Source of the DNA: Prosthecobacter dejongeii
Lineage (GTDB): Bacteria; Verrucomicrobiota; Verrucomicrobiia; Verrucomicrobiales; Verrucomicrobiaceae
Direction of reading: 5' to 3'
DNA length: 64,000 bases
NCBI RefSeq assembly: GCF_014203045.1
Contig: NZ_JACHIF010000005.1
Coordinates: forward strand, 372,001 to 436,000
A program made the translations under genes and the position numbers. Position 1 is the first letter of the stretch, and every line of letters starts with the position of its first letter. The notes below the pieces were generated by a model, which was given only the letters and a program-made list of their open reading frames with translations, did not search any database and was not told where the DNA came from. Below are positions 27,828 to 52,981 of this stretch, in pieces.

Positions 27828-28639
27828 GGGGGATGGAGCGAATGGGGGCAAGAAGACGTTTGCTGGTCGGGGGCTCCGTTCATGGTCATTCCGTCCCGCA
27901 CGCGGGATAGTCTGGGAAGGGGCCTAACAGGAAGTGTGGGTGGTTGGAGCGAACGGAGGTTTCTCGCGCCCCTCCAGGGCGCGGCGGGTGGTGACGCGTT
28001 GTTGGTTAGGCGAGGGTCCGGGGGTTATCGGTGCTGCGCACCTTCACCCCCGGTTATTGGCTTTCGCCCCTCCGGGGCGGGGGGAGGGCGAACGGGGGCA
28101 AGGTAGGGCGCAGGGTCCCCATGCGCAGTGGGGTGGGGGGGACGGATAGTGGTGTGAGGTCGTCTGCGGCAGTACCGTATTCATCACTCTCCGAGTGATG
28201 CGTTCGCCCCAGGTAGGATGGTCCGCCGCCTTCTTCCGAACGAGCCTTGGATGCGTGCGGGGAGGTGGGGCGAACGGGGGTGGGGAGGTGTCCGCGCGCG
28301 CTGGGGGGAGTTAGGCGAATAGGATATTCGCGCTCCGGCACGGGGGTGTGCGGGGGCGTGTGGAGGTGAGGGGTGGACGTCTTGGTGCGAGTGCGCTTCT
28401 CGCGCCCCTCCAGGGCGCACCTCTTGCCACATCGTTGGTTATTCCGTCCATCCGGGGGTTTCGCTCGTGCCTCGCTGCACCCCCGGCTATTGTTCTTTCG
28501 CCCCTCCGGGGCGGGGGGAGGGTGCAAGGGGGGGCGGACGGGGGTGTGATCCCGCAGTCGCGGACGCGAGGACGCAGAAGTCGGCACGCGAGATCCCGCA
28601 ATCGCGGGACAGGCGCATGTTCGCTCCATGATGGACGGC

Positions 28640-28865
28640 GGGCGCTTTGGGGCGGACGCATCACTCGGAGAGTGATGGATACTGTTCTGGCGGACGATGC
28701 GTGCTGGGGCGGACGCATCACTCGGAGAGTGATGGATACTGTACTGGCGGACGATGCGTGCTGGGGCGGACGCATCACTCGGAGAGTGATGGATACTGTA
28801 CTGGCGGACGATGCGTGCTGGGGCGGACGGCATCACTCGGAGAGTGATGAATACTCTACTGGCGG
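28640..28865 (+). repeat. Tandem array of four hpC hairpins
   Basis: hpC copies start at 28659, 28716, 28773 and 28831 (period 57, 57, 58). Each is flanked by GGCGGACG and followed by a GATACTGTACTGG-type tail; the fourth copy has AATACTCTACTGG. Units two to four are almost identical, which suggests recent expansion. Confidence 0.8.
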
Positions 28866-28956
28866 ACGGTGCGGACAGGTGCGAAGCGGCGAGGCGAATG
28901 TCTGCGGCCCTCCGGGGCGGGGGGAGGGGCCAGGGGGCGGGGTGGTCTGTGAGAGG

Positions 28957-31900
28957 TTAGGCTTTTTGCGAGCGGCGGCGGCGCAGGAGGAGGGGGCTGA
29001 GGCCGAGGAGGAGAAGGAGGGCGCGGGAGGGCTCGGGCACGAGGGTGATGACGCTCAGGATGCCTTGGCTGTTGAACTGGCTGAGGTCCCAGGCGAGCTG
29101 GCCGCCGAGGAGGGCGGCGCTGAGGTCGAGGTTGTTGGTCCAGTCGGTGTCGCTGCCGCTGCCGAGGCTGGTCCAGTCGATGAGGTTGAAGGTATCGCCC
29201 GCGGCGGGGGTGTAGCTGAGGAGGAGGCGGAGGCTGGCGCCGGTTTCGAGGGTGAGGCTGTTGAAGATGAGGAGGTCGTTGCTGCCGTTGGCAGTGAGGC
29301 GGAAGTCAGTGCGGCTGCCGGTTTGCAGGAGGGTTTCGCCGGTGAAGGTGAGGGTGCCACGGGCGGTGGCGGTGCCGGCTTGCAGCACGGCCCCGGCCTG
29401 GAGGGTGGTGGCGCTGGCGATGCTGCCGGTGCCCTGGAGGGTGCTGCCGCTGCGCAGGGTGAGGGGGCCGGTGCCGGTGGCGCTGCCGCTGGTGTTGGTC
29501 ACGAGCAGGGTGCCTGCGCGGATGTCTGTGCCGCCGGTGTAGGTGCCACCTGCGCCGAGGCGCAACGTGCCGGGGCCTTGCTTCACCAAGGTGCCGGGGC
29601 CAGTCACTGCGGCGGTGGTCAAAAGGGTGCCGGTGGCGGTCTCGGTGCTGATGAGGACGCTGGGGCTGGCGAGCACGAGGTCGCGACTGAAGGTGGTGGT
29701 GAAGACGTTGCCGCTGGTGGGGCCGTTGCTGTTGATTTGGCGCAGGGCACCCTCGCCGCCGCCGTCGCCGCTGAAGGTGAAGAGGCCGCCGGTGGCCAGG
29801 GACCAGGTGCCTGCGGCGTCGTCGTCAATGATGAACTGGGCCCCGCTGGCGACGGTGAGATGGCGGGCGCTGTTGAGCTGCGCGGAGGTCATGAGCAGGG
29901 AGCCTTCCTGGATCAAGATTTCGCCGGAGAAGGTGCTGCCGTTCGAGCCCACGCCCCAGCGGCCAGCGCCGGTTTTGATGACGTTGCCCGTGCCGGAAAA
30001 ACCGTTGCCGCTGAAGCTCTGCGCGACCTGGAAATCAAAGGTGGCTCCTGCTGCGCCGACGGTGATGCTGCGGGCGGTGTTGGACACGCTGCCGAGGGTG
30101 TTCGCCGTGAGCTGGAGGGTGCCGCCATTGATGAGGACATCGGCGGTGGCTGCGCCCAGGCCGGTGGTGCCGCTGATGGAGACGGTGCCGCTGCTGATGA
30201 GGGTGGTGCCGGTGTAGGTATTGGCCGCGCGCAGGTAGAGGGTGCCGGTGCCACTCATTTCCAGAGGGCGGAGGGCGGCCCCGCTGAGGATGCCGGAGAG
30301 GGTGACATCGCCACTGCCGGTGATGCGGAGGGCGGCGGGGGGCTCGGCCACGGCGCTGGTGTCGGCATTGATGGCGATGGCGCTGCTGTGGGTGAAGGCG
30401 GTGCTGCGATCCAAGACGAGGCTGCCACCGCTGAGGGTGACGGGGCCAGTGAGGCTGCCCGTGCTGCCACCTGTGCCCAGGCGCACCTGCCCGGCGGCGA
30501 TGGTGGTGAGGCCGGTGTAGTCGTTATCCGTGGTGAGGGTGAGGGTGCCGGTGCCGCTTTTGGTTAGGCCGGTGTTGCCGGTGATCTTGCCACTGCCACT
30601 GAAGGTGTAGTTCGTGCTGGCATTGATGGTGATGGCACTGGGCCGCACGGCGCTGTCGAGCTGTACGTTAGACTGGCTGGCCCCGTCTTCGAAGTGGATG
30701 AAATCCGCCTGGACAAAATTGGTCGCAGCCAGGCTGGTGCGGGTCTGCCAGTTTTGGCTGCCGCCCACATTGACAGCGCTGCCCACGTCCCACACGGCGC
30801 TGGTGCTGCCGGTCCAGCGCACTTCTTCACCCTGGACGATGTTTGCCTGCAGGCTGGTGCTGGCGGTGTTATAGACGAGGCTGCCGGTGCTGCGGCCTTC
30901 CATCTGGAGGGTGAAGCCGCTGGTGATGGCGCTGCCTGCGTAGTCCAGCAGGGTGTAGAGGCCGGTGGCAAAGGGCAGGCTGTTGCTGAGGCGCAGGGTG
31001 GTGCTGCCCGCGTGGCTGAGGCCGCCGGTGGTGGTGACATTCACCAGCGGCACGGCGGGGAGTGTGGCGGTATTCAGCTCCAGCAGCAGCGCGGTATTGC
31101 CGCCCAGGTTTAAGGTGGGGGTGCTGAGGCTGGCGGCGGTGGCATCTCCCTGCACGGCGAGGGTGGCAGCACTGCCGACGGTGAGGCCGCCGGGGAGGGT
31201 GCCGGGCTTCACCCGCAGGGTGCCTTCACTGGCGGTGAGCAGGCCAGTGCTGCTGAGGCTGCCGGTGAGGTTCAGCGTGCCTGCGCCGGTTTTCACCAGG
31301 GGGCCGGTGCCGGTCAATGCGCCGCTGAGAGTGAGGGTGCCGCTGGCCTGGGTCACCTCGATCCGGCCGCCGCCTGCGGCCACGGTGAGGGCGCGGGTGG
31401 AGGTGGCGGTGCCGGGGCCCTGGATCTGCCAGGTGCCCTCGGTGCTGGCGCTGCCAAATTCCAACCCGGCCAGGGGTGTGCCGGTGCCATTGGTGACGGT
31501 GCCGGTGGTGGGCACGCTGCTGAAGGGCATGGCCAGGGTGCCTTCGCGGATCTGGAGGGTGAGGTTGTTGTTGAAAGTGACGCCGCTATTCACGGTGACG
31601 GTGGCGGTCGTGCTTTTGGTTAGAACTCCGCCGCCAGACTGGCCCAGGGAACCGCCTGCGCCGGTGCTGGTGAGGCTGCCTGCGCGGAGGTCAAACACGG
31701 ACGTGCCCACCACGGTGGTGTCCGCCGTGCTGGAGGCCCCAGAGGCGCGGTATTCGCCGCCATTGAGGATGAAACCACCGTAGCTTTCACCCGTCTGGAT
31801 ATCGAACAAACCGCCAGCATTGATGGTGACGATGGTGGTGCCGGGCAGGTCGGGATTGCCATCGGGACCGAAGATGAAGGTGCCGCCATTGTGGATGGCG

Positions 31901-45485: not shown

Positions 45486-46418
45486 ATGAACCTGCGCCGC
45501 TGGACTGACTTCCTGGTACTCATGGCCGTGTGGGCGGGCATGATCGTGCTCTTTGGCCTGTTGCGGGATAGCTTCTTCAGCGTCTCCACGCTCGGGTCCG
45601 TGGCGAATCGCATCCCGGCGCTGGCGCTGGTGGCCACGGGCATGACGCTGGTGATGGTGACGGGTGGCATTGACCTTTCGGTGGGCTCCGTGCTGGGCTT
45701 TTGCGGGGCGGTGGTGGGCGTGCTGATGGCAGACCAGCAGTGGGGGCTGCCAGGGGCCCTTGGCGCTAGCCTCGTAGTGGGTACGCTGATGGGCGGGCTC
45801 AATGGTCTGGTGAGTGTGAAACTGCGCCTGCCCTCCTTCATCGTCACTCTGGGCATGCTGGAGATCGCGCGTGGGCTGGCCTTCCTCACCACGGATTCGC
45901 AGACCAAGTACATCGGGGCGAGCGTGGAGTCGCTCGGCGCACCCATCGGGGGGCTGGTCATCTCGCCCGCGTTTGTGATCGCGCTCCTCATTGTCGCCTG
46001 CGGGCAGGTGATGCTGTCACACATGACGTTAGGTCGTCACTTGATTGCCATTGGGGCGAATCGTGAGGCGGCGCTCATTTCTGGGGTGCCGGTGGATCGC
46101 CCACGCATCTTAGCACACGCTTTGTTAGGCCTGCTGACGGGTCTCGCCGCCGTCTTCAACTGCTCCCGCCTGGGCAGTGCCGACCCAAATGCGGGGGTGG
46201 GCTTTGAGCTTTCCGCCATCGCCGCCGTGGTGGTGGGCGGCACCAGCCTCATGGGCGGGCGGGGCTCCGTGGTGAAAAGCTTCCTCGGCGTCCTCATCAT
46301 TGCCACCCTGGAGGCTGGCCTGGTGCAAATCGGCGCCTCCGAGCCCGTGAAACGCGTGGTCACCGGGGCCGTCATCGTCGCCGCTGTGCTGGCGGATACC
46401 TGGAGGCGGAAGGTATGA
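45486..46418 (+). CDS. RbsC-like sugar ABC transporter permease
   Basis: The protein has 310 residues with about eight to ten hydrophobic segments and belongs to the branched-chain/ribose permease family (BPD_transp_2). The family signature GGIDLSVGSVLGFCGAVVG appears near residue 58, and GVPVDRPRILAHALLGLLTG follows the cytoplasmic coupling loop. It forms the membrane channel for the RbsB-like protein. The ATP-binding subunit is not encoded in this window. The stop codon overlaps the start of the DUF1016 gene by four bases. Confidence 0.9.
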   Translation: MNLRRWTDFLVLMAVWAGMIVLFGLLRDSFFSVSTLGSVANRIPALALVATGMTLVMVTGGIDLSVGSVLGFCGAVVGVLMADQQWGLPGALGASLVVGTLMGGLNGLVSVKLRLPSFIVTLGMLEIARGLAFLTTDSQTKYIGASVESLGAPIGGLVISPAFVIALLIVACGQVMLSHMTLGRHLIAIGANREAALISGVPVDRPRILAHALLGLLTGLAAVFNCSRLGSADPNAGVGFELSAIAAVVVGGTSLMGGRGSVVKSFLGVLIIATLEAGLVQIGASEPVKRVVTGAVIVAAVLADTWRRKV

Positions 46419-47623
46419 AAAAACGTCAAGCATCTGTTTCTGCGCGTCAGACAGGCTACAAGCATCTTGTCGGTGCAATAGCCGACCTCAGCTCGCAAAT
46501 GGCCAAACGAGTTGCCTCAGTGGCCAATCAGGGACTCGTCTTGCGCAACTGGATCGTCGGAGCCTACATCGTCGAGTTTGAACAAGGGGGCGCAGACCGT
46601 GCTAAGTACGGGGAGCGTCTGCTGGAACGATTGGCTGATGATCTGGTGAAAAAAGGGATCAAAGGGTTGGATCTAAGGAGGCTTCGAGACTGCCGGACCT
46701 TTTCTGCGATGTATCCGCAGATTCGGCAGTCAGTGACCGCCGAATTCATGGATGTCAGCCTTTTGCGAGGGCGGGAACCGTCACATTCTGGGGAGTTGGA
46801 AGTATTATCTGTCGAGATTCGGCGGTCAGTGACCGCCGAATCTGAGCCTTCTCAGCACTCACCAACTCCTTTGGACTCGGTATTGATTTTGGACATCTCT
46901 TGGACAAAGCTCCAAGAACTCATTCGTATTTCGGATCCCTGGAAGAGGGCTTTTTATGAGAATGAATGCCTGAAGGAAAAGTGGTCGGTACGCGAACTTC
47001 AGCGGCAGATCGAAAGCCTCCTATACGAACGCACGGGGCTCTCGACCAACAAGAAGGCGGTGATCGAAAGAGCTAGAAAACAGGCCAAAACAGGGCAACC
47101 AGAATCCATTGAGGAATTGATGCGTGATCCTTACATTCTGGAGTTTACTGGTCTGGCGGAACGGCCGCAATACAGTGAGAACGATCTCGAAACGGCCTTG
47201 CTGGATCATCTGCAACGCTTTTTGTTAGAAATGGGAAAAGGCTTTTGTTTTGAAGCCAGGCAGTTCCGCATGACGGAGGGGAGAAAGCACCATCGCGTGG
47301 ACCTCGTTTTTTATCATCGTGTCTTGAGATGTCATGTGCTGCTGGACCTCAAAACCCGCGCTTTTAAACCCGAGGATGCGGGCCAGATGAACTTCTATTT
47401 GAACTGGTTCAAGGCCCGAATGATGCAGGGCCATGATCAGCCCCCGGTGGGCATCTTGTTATGCACCGATAAAGATGGAACCGAAGTGGAATTTGCGACG
47501 GCGGGGATGGATCAAAAGCTGTTTGTTTCGCGTTATCTGACCGCCCTGCCCACGGCAGCTCAACTCAAAGAGTTGGTCGAGACAGATCGTGCTCATCTTA
47601 AAAACTCATCGAGCAAAAGCTAA
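46415..47623 (+). CDS. DUF1016 (YhcG-type) PD-(D/E)XK nuclease
   Basis: The protein has 402 residues. The N-terminal part (about 15-195) is the DUF1016_N helical region (LVLRNWIVGAYIVEFEQGG). The C-terminal part is the PD-(D/E)XK nuclease fold with catalytic Asp in HHRVDLVFYHRVL and Asp-Leu-Lys in CHVLLDLKTRAF, followed by GQMNFYLNWF, as in YhcG. These proteins are associated with mobile DNA and genome defence, though their task is not settled. The coding DNA is AT-richer than its neighbours. The gene overlaps rbsC by ATGA and ends two bases before the nucleoside hydrolase gene. The linker near residues 103-143 is encoded by two long DNA palindromes, both read as IRxSVTAE. Confidence 0.82.
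   Translation: MKKRQASVSARQTGYKHLVGAIADLSSQMAKRVASVANQGLVLRNWIVGAYIVEFEQGGADRAKYGERLLERLADDLVKKGIKGLDLRRLRDCRTFSAMYPQIRQSVTAEFMDVSLLRGREPSHSGELEVLSVEIRRSVTAESEPSQHSPTPLDSVLILDISWTKLQELIRISDPWKRAFYENECLKEKWSVRELQRQIESLLYERTGLSTNKKAVIERARKQAKTGQPESIEELMRDPYILEFTGLAERPQYSENDLETALLDHLQRFLLEMGKGFCFEARQFRMTEGRKHHRVDLVFYHRVLRCHVLLDLKTRAFKPEDAGQMNFYLNWFKARMMQGHDQPPVGILLCTDKDGTEVEFATAGMDQKLFVSRYLTALPTAAQLKELVETDRAHLKNSSSKS
46720..46746. repeat. Near-perfect palindrome inside the DUF1016 gene (copy 1)
   Basis: Arms GATTCGGCAGTCA and TGACCGCCGAATT flank a central G; 11 of the inner 12 pairs match. It encodes IRQSVTAEF. Confidence 0.75.
46815..46843. repeat. Perfect palindrome inside the DUF1016 gene (copy 2)
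   Basis: Arms AGATTCGGCGGTCA and TGACCGCCGAATCT flank a central G, a 14-base perfect inverted repeat. It starts 96 bases after copy 1, in the same reading frame, and encodes IRRSVTAES. Confidence 0.8.
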
Positions 47624-47625
47624 GC

Positions 47626-48642
47626 ATGAAACCCTTCTTCACCCTCCTTCTCAGCTTCGTTCTATCCCTCCCCCTCGCCCAGGCGGAGAGGCCCAGGATC
47701 ATCTTTGATACGGACATCACGGGGGATGTGGATGATGTGCTGGCGCTGGCGATGCTGCACAACCTGGCGGATCGCGGGGCCTGTGAGCTGCTGGGCGTCA
47801 CCATCTCCAAGCAGAATCCGCAGACGGCAGCGTTTGTGGATGCGCAAAATACCTTTCACGGCAGGCCGGATCTGCCCATCGGCGTGACGCGGGACGCGAC
47901 GGCGCAGAAGCGGGACAGCCGCTACCTGAAGCTGGCGGAATCGCCTAACTATAAGCATGACATCGTGAGCAATGACGCCGTGCCGGAGGCCGTCTCCCTG
48001 CTGCGGCAGTTGCTGGCCGCACAGCCAGACGGCAGCGTCAGCATCGTCAGTGTGGGCATCGCCGCGAACATGGCGAACCTGCTGCGTTCCGCGGGCGATG
48101 CACATTCACCGCTCGCGGGTCCGGCTTTGATCCGCCAAAAGGTGAAGCTGCTTTCCATCATGGCGGGTGGGTTTGCCACCATCGAAAGCAACAACCATTT
48201 CCTGGAGGCGAATGTCATCAATGGCATCCCCGCCATGCAAACGGTGGCGCAGGATTGGCCCGTGGAAGTGCCGGTGGTGTGGAGCGGGTATGAGATCGGC
48301 GTTTCCCTGCCATATCCGCGCCAGAGCATCGCCCGGGATTTTAATTATCTGCCGCATCACCTGGTGAAAGAGGCCTATCTTTTGTACTGTGGCTCAGAGC
48401 ATGACCGGCCCTGCTGGGACCAAAGCAGCGTGCTCTACGCCGTGTTCCCAGAGCGTGAGTACTTCGGCCTTTCGCAGCCCGGTCGGGTCAGTGTGGCGGC
48501 GGATGGATTCACCCGCTTCACCCTGCCGAAAAAGGATGACCGCCAGCCCGTGCGCGATCGCTTTCTCACCCTCACGCCCACCCAGCGCGCCCGCGTGCTG
48601 GAGGCGATGGTCCACCTCACCGCCCAACCTCCAAAACCATGA
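47626..48642 (+). CDS. Exported nucleoside hydrolase-like protein (paralogue 1)
   Basis: The protein has 338 residues: a signal peptide (MKPFFTLLLSFVLSLPLAQA), then the calcium-binding DTDITGDVDDVLAL motif that defines inosine-uridine nucleoside hydrolases. These enzymes split ribonucleosides into base and ribose. Further family-like segments include KLLSIMAGGF and VVWSGYEIG. The export signal implies that it acts on nucleosides outside the cytoplasm. It is followed with a four-base overlap by a second paralogue, and both lie downstream of the sugar transporter genes. Whether it takes purine or pyrimidine nucleosides cannot be told. Confidence 0.85.
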   Translation: MKPFFTLLLSFVLSLPLAQAERPRIIFDTDITGDVDDVLALAMLHNLADRGACELLGVTISKQNPQTAAFVDAQNTFHGRPDLPIGVTRDATAQKRDSRYLKLAESPNYKHDIVSNDAVPEAVSLLRQLLAAQPDGSVSIVSVGIAANMANLLRSAGDAHSPLAGPALIRQKVKLLSIMAGGFATIESNNHFLEANVINGIPAMQTVAQDWPVEVPVVWSGYEIGVSLPYPRQSIARDFNYLPHHLVKEAYLLYCGSEHDRPCWDQSSVLYAVFPEREYFGLSQPGRVSVAADGFTRFTLPKKDDRQPVRDRFLTLTPTQRARVLEAMVHLTAQPPKP

Positions 48643-51265: not shown

Positions 51266-52153
51266 GGGGGCGGGTAGGGGGGCGGGGTGCCCATGCGTAG
51301 TGGGGTGAGGGGGGACGGATAGTGGTGTGAGGTCATCTGCGGCAGTACAGTATCCATCACTCTCCGAGTGATGCGTTCGCCCCAGACAGGATGGTCCGCT
51401 CCTTCTTCCGAACGAGTCGTGAATGCGTGCGGGCAGGTGAGGCGAACGGGGGGCGGGGGAGAGGTGCGTGCGCGCTGGGGGAGTTAGGCGAATAGGATAT
51501 TCGCGCTCCGTCTGCGGGCCTGCGGGGGCGTGAGGAGTTGAGGGGTGGACGTGAGAGTGGGGGTACGCTTCTCGCGCCCCTCCAGGGCGCGGGGAGGGTG
51601 GACGCGTTTTTGGTTAGGCGGAGGCCCGGGGGTTCTCGGTGCTGCGCACCTTCACCCCCGGCTATGAGCTTTCGCCCCTCCGGGGCGGGGTAGGGGGCGG
51701 ACGGTGCGTGCTAGGGCGGACGGCATCACTCGGAGAGTGATGAATACTGTACTGGCGGACGGTGCGTTTGGGGGCGGACGCATCAGTCGGAGAGTGATGA
51801 ATACTGTACTGCGGACGGTGCGTTTGGGGGCGGACGGCATCACTCGGAGAGTGATGAATACTGTACTGCGGACGGTGCGTTTTGGGGCGGACGCATCACT
51901 CGGAGAGTGATGGATACTGTACTGCGGACGGGGCCGTTCTCCCGCCCCGGAGGGGCGGAAGCGGGTAGCCGGGGGTGGAGCGAGGCTGGGCGAGCGGGAA
52001 CCCCCGGAGATACGGAATAACCAACGATGTGGCAAGAGGTGCGCCCTGGAGGGGCGCGAGAAGGGCCGCTGCACCCCCGATTCACCCCGGGGATGTTAGA
52101 CCGAGGCCGCGCCGACCTCGAAGATGTGCACACGCCCCTTGCAGCCGCTCCCC
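51266..52153. repeat. Intergenic hairpin-repeat cluster 5
   Basis: Layout: inverted hpC leader (hpC at 51355-51373) with its GTTCG...CGAAC block to 51430; hpD (51488-51504); a composite element (51568-52062); and the start of a version-B flank (52080-52110) that breaks off into unrelated sequence before hpB1. The cluster sits between converging rbsK and the transglutaminase-like gene. I see no gene in it. Confidence 0.85.
51568..52062 (+). mobile_element. Composite hairpin element 5, two-armed, four hpC
   Basis: The best-ordered copy: left arm, then hpC at 51724, 51781, 51838 and 51894 (period 57, 57, 56), then a full right arm. The second hpC has CATCAGTC, which breaks one stem pair. The hpC units are separated by almost identical GCGGACGGTGCGTTT spacers. 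Confidence 0.8.
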
Positions 52154-52981
52154 TCAGCCGCGCACTGGGCGCACGGGCCGCAGCAGCCACAGCCCCGCTC
52201 CCGCCAGGGCCAGGGGGAGGAGGAATTTCATCACCTCGGCCACCTGCTCCACCACGGCCAGCACATTCGCCTTCCACTCAAACCGGGCCCCACTGGGCGT
52301 GCTCATGTAGAGGTGATTTTGCCGCGTGCGGATGAGGTCTGCCATGCGCGGGTGGTGCCCGTAGCTGGCGGCCAGCAGCGTCTCATCGGCCGCCAGTTCA
52401 TCCAGGCTGGCCACCTCCCCGTTCGCCTTCATGGGGATGACCTCCAGGTCGGGATCATACAGGTGCCAGTCTCCCCCATACCACACCTCCAGCACCACGT
52501 GCCCCTGCAGGCCGATGTGCCGCGCCGGGTACCCCTGGGCCAAGGCCATGTCCATCATCACATACGAGGCCTGGTCACACAGCACGGTGCTGCCGTACGC
52601 CACGATGAGCCGGGGGGACCACATGTGGCCCAGGGTGGGGTGCAGCAGGCCGGCGGCGGCCAGGATCCAGTTGCTGGCCAGGGTGTGGTGCGCCTCTTCA
52701 TGGGTGAAGCGGGCGGCCACCAGATCACACAGCGCGCGCATTTTTTCCGCATCCGTCCCGGCGGCGGCCATTTTTTCCACCGCACGGGCCCGCAGCCGCG
52801 TGTAGTCCGTCAGCTCCGCTGCCAGCGTGGGGTCAAATTTTTCCCCCGCCCGTGCAGGCTCCCGGTGGTCATGCCCCCAGGAGGTCCACTGGCCCAGGGC
52901 GGCGATGCCCAGCAGCCCCACCCCCAGCACCAGGCAGAGGCTGCCGATTAAGCGGCGGGATGAAGGCGATAGGGAAACCAT
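52154..52981 (-). CDS. Membrane-anchored transglutaminase-like protein
   Basis: The protein has 275 residues from the ATG at 52981; a TTG 33 bases upstream is a weaker alternative. There is one N-terminal membrane helix (RLIGSLCLVLGVGLLGIAAL) and one near the C terminus (MKFLLPLALAGAGLWLL). Between them is a transglutaminase-like core with candidate catalytic residues Cys in TVLCDQASYVM, His in GLQGHVVLEVWY and Asp in WHLYDPDLEVIP. Such proteins may cleave or crosslink peptides; many are uncharacterised. It is a single-gene unit converging on rbsK. Confidence 0.72.
   Translation of the reverse strand: MVSLSPSSRRLIGSLCLVLGVGLLGIAALGQWTSWGHDHREPARAGEKFDPTLAAELTDYTRLRARAVEKMAAAGTDAEKMRALCDLVAARFTHEEAHHTLASNWILAAAGLLHPTLGHMWSPRLIVAYGSTVLCDQASYVMMDMALAQGYPARHIGLQGHVVLEVWYGGDWHLYDPDLEVIPMKANGEVASLDELAADETLLAASYGHHPRMADLIRTRQNHLYMSTPSGARFEWKANVLAVVEQVAEVMKFLLPLALAGAGLWLLRPVRPVRG

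Follow-up and report, generated by a model that had tools for sequence, protein, structure and literature searches.

The window examined here is a 64,000-nucleotide stretch of the Prosthecobacter dejongeii genome (contig NZ_JACHIF010000005.1, positions 372,001 to 436,000), and the feature of interest is a DUF1016/YhcG-type gene with two palindromes in its coding sequence (Table 1). Both DUF1016/YhcG Pfam domains exceed their gathering scores in the encoded protein (YhcG_C, PF06250: 180.9 bits, cut-off 32.5; DUF1016_N, PF17761: 101.3 bits, cut-off 32.8), which makes it a member of the family. The gene shares 4 nt with the end of the upstream permease gene, including its stop codon, and 2 nt separate it from the start of the downstream hydrolase gene.

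Table 1. The DUF1016/YhcG-type gene, its palindromes, the predicted DNA-reading elements and the neighbouring genes. Positions are those of the window; positions within a palindrome are counted from its centre.
Feature	Position	Strand	Remarks
Sugar ABC permease gene, RbsC-like (by eye from translation)	45486..46418	+	Upstream neighbour
DUF1016/YhcG-type gene, 402 aa	46415..47623	+	N-domain, palindrome linker, PD-(D/E)XK nuclease C-domain
First predicted recognition helix codons (residues 87-99; readers R88, R91, D92)	46673..46711	+	AF2 helix; covariation with positions 5-9
Palindrome 1	46721..46745	no strand	ATTCGGCAGTCA-G-TGACCGCCGAAT; 12-nt arms, one mismatch; encodes IRQSVTAE
Palindrome 2	46815..46843	no strand	AGATTCGGCGGTCA-G-TGACCGCCGAATCT; perfect 14-nt arms; encodes IRRSVTAE
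Helix 163-170 codons (ISWTKLQELI motif)	46901..46924	+	T164 and Q167 covary with palindrome positions 3 and 4
Second predicted recognition helix codons (residues 192-200)	46988..47014	+	V192, R193, Q196 with positions 3, 2, 4
YhcG_C PD-(D/E)XK nuclease domain	47114..47569	+	E259, D296, D311, K313 present
Nucleoside-hydrolase-like gene (by eye)	47626..48642	+	Downstream neighbour

The initial annotation had described two in-frame palindromes in the linker of this gene, 96 bases apart, the second perfect over 14-base arms and both encoding IRxSVTAE, and every one of these particulars was confirmed. The palindromes have a 1-nt centre at 46733 and a central G at 46829, respectively, and lie in the same frame at a centre-to-centre distance of 96 nt. 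The best palindrome score in the linker is 14, compared with a maximum of 10 in 200 draws of synonymous codon resampling. A search of the whole window for further matches with up to 3 mismatches found none (0 expected in shuffles), and no copy was found elsewhere in the 6.0-Mb genome at the same tolerance, which rules out a dispersed repeat or MITE. Two further DUF1016 paralogs in this genome carry palindromes of different sequence in the same linker; when the palindromes of all three paralogs were searched against their own genome (6 Mb, up to 3 mismatches), only the copies in each palindrome's own gene were recovered.

The permease and nucleoside hydrolase genes adjoin one another without an intervening DUF1016 gene in 17 relatives. 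On this gene order, the window gene is a bare-ORF insertion in a sugar permease/nucleoside hydrolase operon. No palindrome resembling the DUF1016 site was seen at the empty permease-hydrolase junctions. A DUF1016 gene adjoins the hydrolase gene in two other genomes (G034 and G039), overlaps the stop codon of an integrase gene in a similar manner on two plasmids, and lies between methyltransferase and specificity-subunit genes in Deinococcus. In Deinococcus and Pseudanabaena the gene adjoins type I restriction-modification genes, and in Anabaena a single gene separates it from a type I-D CRISPR gene.

The survey set comprised 304 distinct DUF1016 genes; its sources were the genus, the phylum Verrucomicrobiota, other phyla, plasmids, E. 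coli and viral contigs; in the viral contigs a single-protein query gave no match, and an alignment query found DUF1016 genes. Palindrome counts rest on the 291 genes with a measurable linker and on a threshold of an odd centre and a score of at least 8. An odd-centred palindrome of 25-33 bp was present in the same linker in 268 of the 291 genes, as against 2.4% expected from synonymous codon resampling. Palindromes were concentrated there, with 442 in 44 kb of linker versus 50 in 307 kb of remaining gene sequence, and 429 of the 442 were centred at codon position 1. Each gene carries between one and six copies, and the last centre falls exactly 15 nt ahead of a conserved Trp codon in 108 genes. 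A second scoring rule, applied to an earlier subset of 131 genes, gave a mean score of 11.7, compared with 4.5 for resampled sequences and 4.1 for other windows. Several genes scored as lacking a palindrome contain a decayed one, and in some genes all palindromes are decayed (e.g., L033, an ortholog in the same operon position as the window gene). The annotation had proposed that the palindrome, and not the peptide alone, is conserved in DUF1016 genes. The survey bears this out and contradicts the opposite expectation, that palindromes are absent from most of these genes and the synonymous sites unconstrained; the QTVSAQ-type peptides of other DUF1016 proteins represent this feature at the protein level.

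What is conserved is the symmetry of the site, and its sequence varies. At positions 2-8, counted outward from the centre, the arms are 92-97% Watson-Crick paired; from one gene to the next the arms vary in sequence, both arms covary, nearly all pair types are used, and all four occur at most of half-site positions 2-8. Positions 10-12 mostly read ATT...AAT. When two palindromes of one gene are compared, 27% of the half-site positions differ; for palindromes from different genes the figure is 60%. In one viral gene (L289), an exact half-site copy lies upstream, ~83 nt from the first residue in the alignment, as a promoter operator would; promoter-located copies are rare, this being one. The spacing between palindromes has a mode of 39 nt, but this is likely clade-driven and cannot be interpreted as helical phasing. 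A promoter and terminator scan yielded nothing informative.

In the AlphaFold model, confidently placed helix-turn-helix elements occupy residues 67-79/87-99 and 175-188/192-200, and the linker is poorly ordered. The two recognition helices are alike (GFSxxNLxxMR, residues 84-97; GWSVRxLxxQI, 189-203) and may reflect an internal duplication. Kosinski et al. predicted the YhcG nuclease fold and found the N-terminal ~200 residues to be mostly helical, without a confident match (PMC1189080). Because a fold search with our full-length model returned chiefly nuclease-domain matches and none for the N-domain, the latter was folded alone, using a relative with a short linker (mean pLDDT 90.8). The DNA-binding domains of ParB, Noc and Spo0J were the sole coherent family in the structure search with this model, with a Foldseek probability of 0.97 but an E-value of 0.2. 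In VIA-align, 12 ParB/Noc/Spo0J entries led with Z scores of 6.7-8.4 over ~100 residues and the next family reached 4.2, a Z near 8 being inconclusive on its own. Pfam gave DUF1016_N and YhcG_C alone and no CTP-binding ParB/Srx domain. In the C-terminal domain, E259, D296, D/E311 and K313 are all intact in 271 of 288 genes; Foldseek matches to PD-(D/E)XK nucleases were weak (E about 1e-3 to 1e-2).

We next consider how the half-site relates to the encoded protein. Plain mutual information without phylogenetic control was dropped because subfamily structure dominated the signal, and partial correlation and disjoint-pair tests were used instead, on gene pairs drawn from a sampled tree rich in Verrucomicrobiota. 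With overall identity controlled, half-site change across 8,445 gene pairs tracks change at residues 88, 89, 91, 92 and 192, and also at the residues that the palindrome encodes; the mean correlation for the nuclease domain is -0.005. Resolved by position (k, counted from the centre), residue 88 corresponds to k7, 91 to k8-9, 92 to k5-6, 192 to k3 and 193 to k2. Eight residue-position pairs pass Bonferroni correction among 131 disjoint gene pairs (2,182 tests): R88-k7 (p=9e-12), V192-k3 (p=6e-10), T164-k3 (1.4e-8), R91-k8, R193-k2, D92-k6, Q167-k4 and R88-k6. None lies in the nuclease domain, where the best pair reaches only 1.1e-3. The flanking residues L90, R94, W190, S191, E194 and L195 are silent in the same test, so genetic linkage alone does not explain the covariation.

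The underlying contingency tables are near deterministic and chemically classical. Arginine at residue 88 occurs with G at position 7 in 115 of 118 cases, and at residue 193 with C at position 2 in 145 of 146. The base at position 3 varies with residue 192: R or K occurs with C (89/92), V or L with A or T (93/95), and S, T or A with G (44/46). At position 8, E91 is found with C (22/23) and W91 with T (31/31). The L033 ortholog has K192 and, by eye, C at position 3 in one imperfect palindrome; the corresponding combination in the window gene is V192 and T. Agreement is looser in the middle copies of multi-copy genes (69% at k7), some copies deviating at positions 7-9.

These correspondences were then used to predict a gene's own site. 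When eight reading positions were used with training genes less than 40% identical to the query, the gene's own palindrome ranked at a median percentile of 97.8, compared with 42-71 for matched nuclease-domain columns; the columns here had been picked on the full set. In a held-out test, 206 genome genes served to pick the columns and 57 genes from viral contigs, plasmids and E. coli formed the test set; the median percentile was 94.7 (95.9 with training genes less than 45% identical), against 53-73 for nuclease-domain control columns. For the window gene the prediction was CGGCAAAC and the actual half-site is CGGCGGTC, which placed it at the 100th percentile, above all 217 others; one of its paralogs (L002) likewise ranked its own palindrome first. 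The suggestion that the palindrome might be a self-recognised site thus gains support, since its bases can be predicted from helix residues of the very protein that the gene encodes. Taken as a whole, the pattern shows a coding sequence apparently under joint selection, which both encodes a protein and serves as that protein's predicted DNA target.

Variation within E. coli provides a view of the same relationship at short range. The family member yhcG was found in 4,417 of 5,426 E. coli genomes; 80% or more of its length is present in 3,310. Two allele classes differ mainly in a cassette comprising the first recognition helix and the palindromes; between them, in the first palindrome, K88R is accompanied by C7G and R91W by G8T. 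The second class retains one palindrome of the first type, leaving the match imperfect in some copies, and K-12 yhcG carries mixed palindrome types. In O157:H7, a 78-nt in-frame deletion removes palindromes 2 and 3 and leaves one perfect palindrome, CGCCAGAC, compared with CGCCACAC predicted for the K-12 protein. If the code is true, a K88R,R91W YhcG (window numbering) would shift its preference from CGCCAGAC towards GTGCAGAC. In K-12, a further yhcG-type palindrome lies in non-coding sequence directly after the yhcG stop codon, ahead of nanQ (L134:4970-4997). The gene is often disrupted in E. coli, and several of the breakpoints and deletions map to the palindrome region: an IS1 junction (nt 385), a truncation within palindrome 3 (nt 406) and two deletions (78 nt and 80 nt). 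Apparent swaps of N- and C-terminal parts in E. coli yhcG proved to be IS-associated truncations.

The conserved self-palindromy, the codon phase, the covariation of the arms and the residue-base code are computational observations. From them we strongly infer that a dimer of the protein binds its own gene in the cell, and we think it probable that the palindromes are cognate dyad-symmetric sites of the gene's own protein with a role in self-limitation or anchoring. In each subunit, the ParB/Noc-like DNA-binding domain would supply two reading elements. Counting from the centre, positions 5-9 (the outer half-site) would be read by helix 87-99 and positions 2-4 (the inner half-site) by helices 163-170 and 192-200; the homodimer would span the whole palindrome. 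Since the site sits between the codons of the reading elements, reading head and address would move together upon gene transfer or cassette exchange. The bound dimer could limit transcription of its own gene in any host operon, as an intragenic operator or roadblock, and could anchor and restrain the nuclease at home, while the conserved PD-(D/E)XK active site may act on foreign or altered DNA. The main argument for a regulatory role is inferential: an operator at its own promoter would be unreliable for a gene that enters foreign operons, so that an intragenic site, usable under any promoter, would serve it better. Autoregulation or anchoring is the less certain part of this proposal, on balance still somewhat favoured, and a purely regulatory account is incomplete given that the nuclease residues are almost universally intact.

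Alternatively, the palindrome may be a target for cleavage, with cutting directed at the gene itself or its copies either driving cassette exchange or excluding a second element with the same gene. The combination of a specific reader and an intact nuclease in one protein would suit this role, as would the exchange of the helix-palindrome cassette between E. coli alleles and the behaviour of the gene as a mobile bare ORF; several yhcG disruptions also end at palindromes, and two different deletions remove palindromes 2 and 3. IS targeting and recombination between repeats account for such breakpoints too, however. Moreover, intact yhcG persists in thousands of E. coli genomes, and no methylase gene adjoins it in the loci read, which makes efficient self-cutting unlikely in this species. 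Homing nucleases typically carry no copy of their own site; a homing site, one of the roles entertained in the initial annotation, is accordingly unlikely in the classical form because the gene carries the site intact. Overall, we regard cleavage-linked roles as a minority possibility. It is improbable that the palindrome is a loading site of the ParB/Noc kind, on which a dimer would nucleate before spreading or loading nearby to mark or license DNA for the nuclease: the fold similarity of the N-domain to ParB/Noc and the same division between outer and inner readout speak for it, but Pfam finds no ParB CTPase domain, the sites are odd-centred, unlike parS and NBS, and the VIA-align Z is near the tool's ambiguous level.

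A role for the palindrome in mRNA, as a hairpin, attenuator or protein-bound RNA, is very improbable. RNA folding does predict a stable hairpin (-25 kcal/mol, z -5.6), but G.T mismatches (31) are rarer than A.C mismatches (83), so there is no RNA wobble preference; the code also suits helix side chains reading duplex DNA (R-G, E-C), and a copy in K-12 lies in non-coding sequence beyond the stop codon. We find it barely credible that the palindromes are selfish or dispersed in-frame elements, or products of quasi-palindrome self-correction, without function for the host protein. Selfish in-frame palindromes are known from Rickettsia (PMC4316617) and copy number here is variable, yet the absence of copies elsewhere in the genome and the fixed location and codon phase across phyla argue otherwise, and the predictability of the bases from the reading helices, that is, the residue-base code, already contradicts such an origin.

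Comparison with known systems helps to place the proposed cognate site. In B. subtilis, the spo0J (parB) gene itself harbours a parS site. ParB-parS (chromosome partition) and Noc-NBS (nucleoid occlusion) resemble the proposed DUF1016 arrangement: there a dimer reads a palindrome with separate outer and inner helices, through a DNA-binding domain whose fold the predicted DUF1016 N-domain may share. In ParB/Noc, residue 173 (R173 in ParB) of the HTH helix reads the outer base at position 1, and residue 201 of a second helix the inner base at position 6 (PMC7383237). DUF1016 proteins differ in carrying a PD-(D/E)XK nuclease and no detected CTPase domain, and their site is odd-centred, longer, gene-specific and, in the genome tested, confined to its own gene. 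Autoregulators with intragenic operators, which combine a palindromic operator in coding sequence with self-control, are our working model; the DUF1016 site, in contrast, is family- and phyla-wide, locked in codon phase, located between the codons of the reading helices, and co-diverges with those helices. The palindromic elements of Rickettsia are likewise palindromic DNA within open reading frames, but are ~100-150 nt long, dispersed and selfish (PMC4316617), whereas the DUF1016 site is short, matched to its own protein and unique to its gene. The predicted nucleases known as YhcG, DUF1016 or COG4804 are the window protein's own family (PF17761 and PF06250). The PADLOC models of PDC-S02, a phage-defence class that is a candidate only, with no mechanism or self-site attached, match the window protein (E 3e-124). 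In the literature searched, outside of which lay most subscription journals and bioRxiv, we found no description of DUF1016 palindromes, of a recognition code or of a ParB-like N-domain.

YhcG, which occurs in the majority of E. coli genomes and in numerous phyla, thereby gains a predicted binding site and a readable residue-base code, and the predicted self-target appears to have stayed matched to its protein as the family diverged across phyla. Should the code prove correct, these proteins would constitute natural orthogonal DNA readers fused to nucleases. More tentatively, DUF1016 proteins across phyla might be self-addressed nucleases that recognise copies of their own gene by a private in-frame site, an address that could serve restraint at home, exclusion of rival copies or the driving of specificity-cassette exchange. 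This raises the question of how a nuclease can coexist with a target located in the gene that encodes it.

Apart from the DUF1016 gene, translated open reading frames in two other parts of the window (51652-52277 and 28348-30567) contain repeated segments (e.g., TVFITLRVM, RRVMDTVLADDACWGGRIT), which suggest related tandem repeats.
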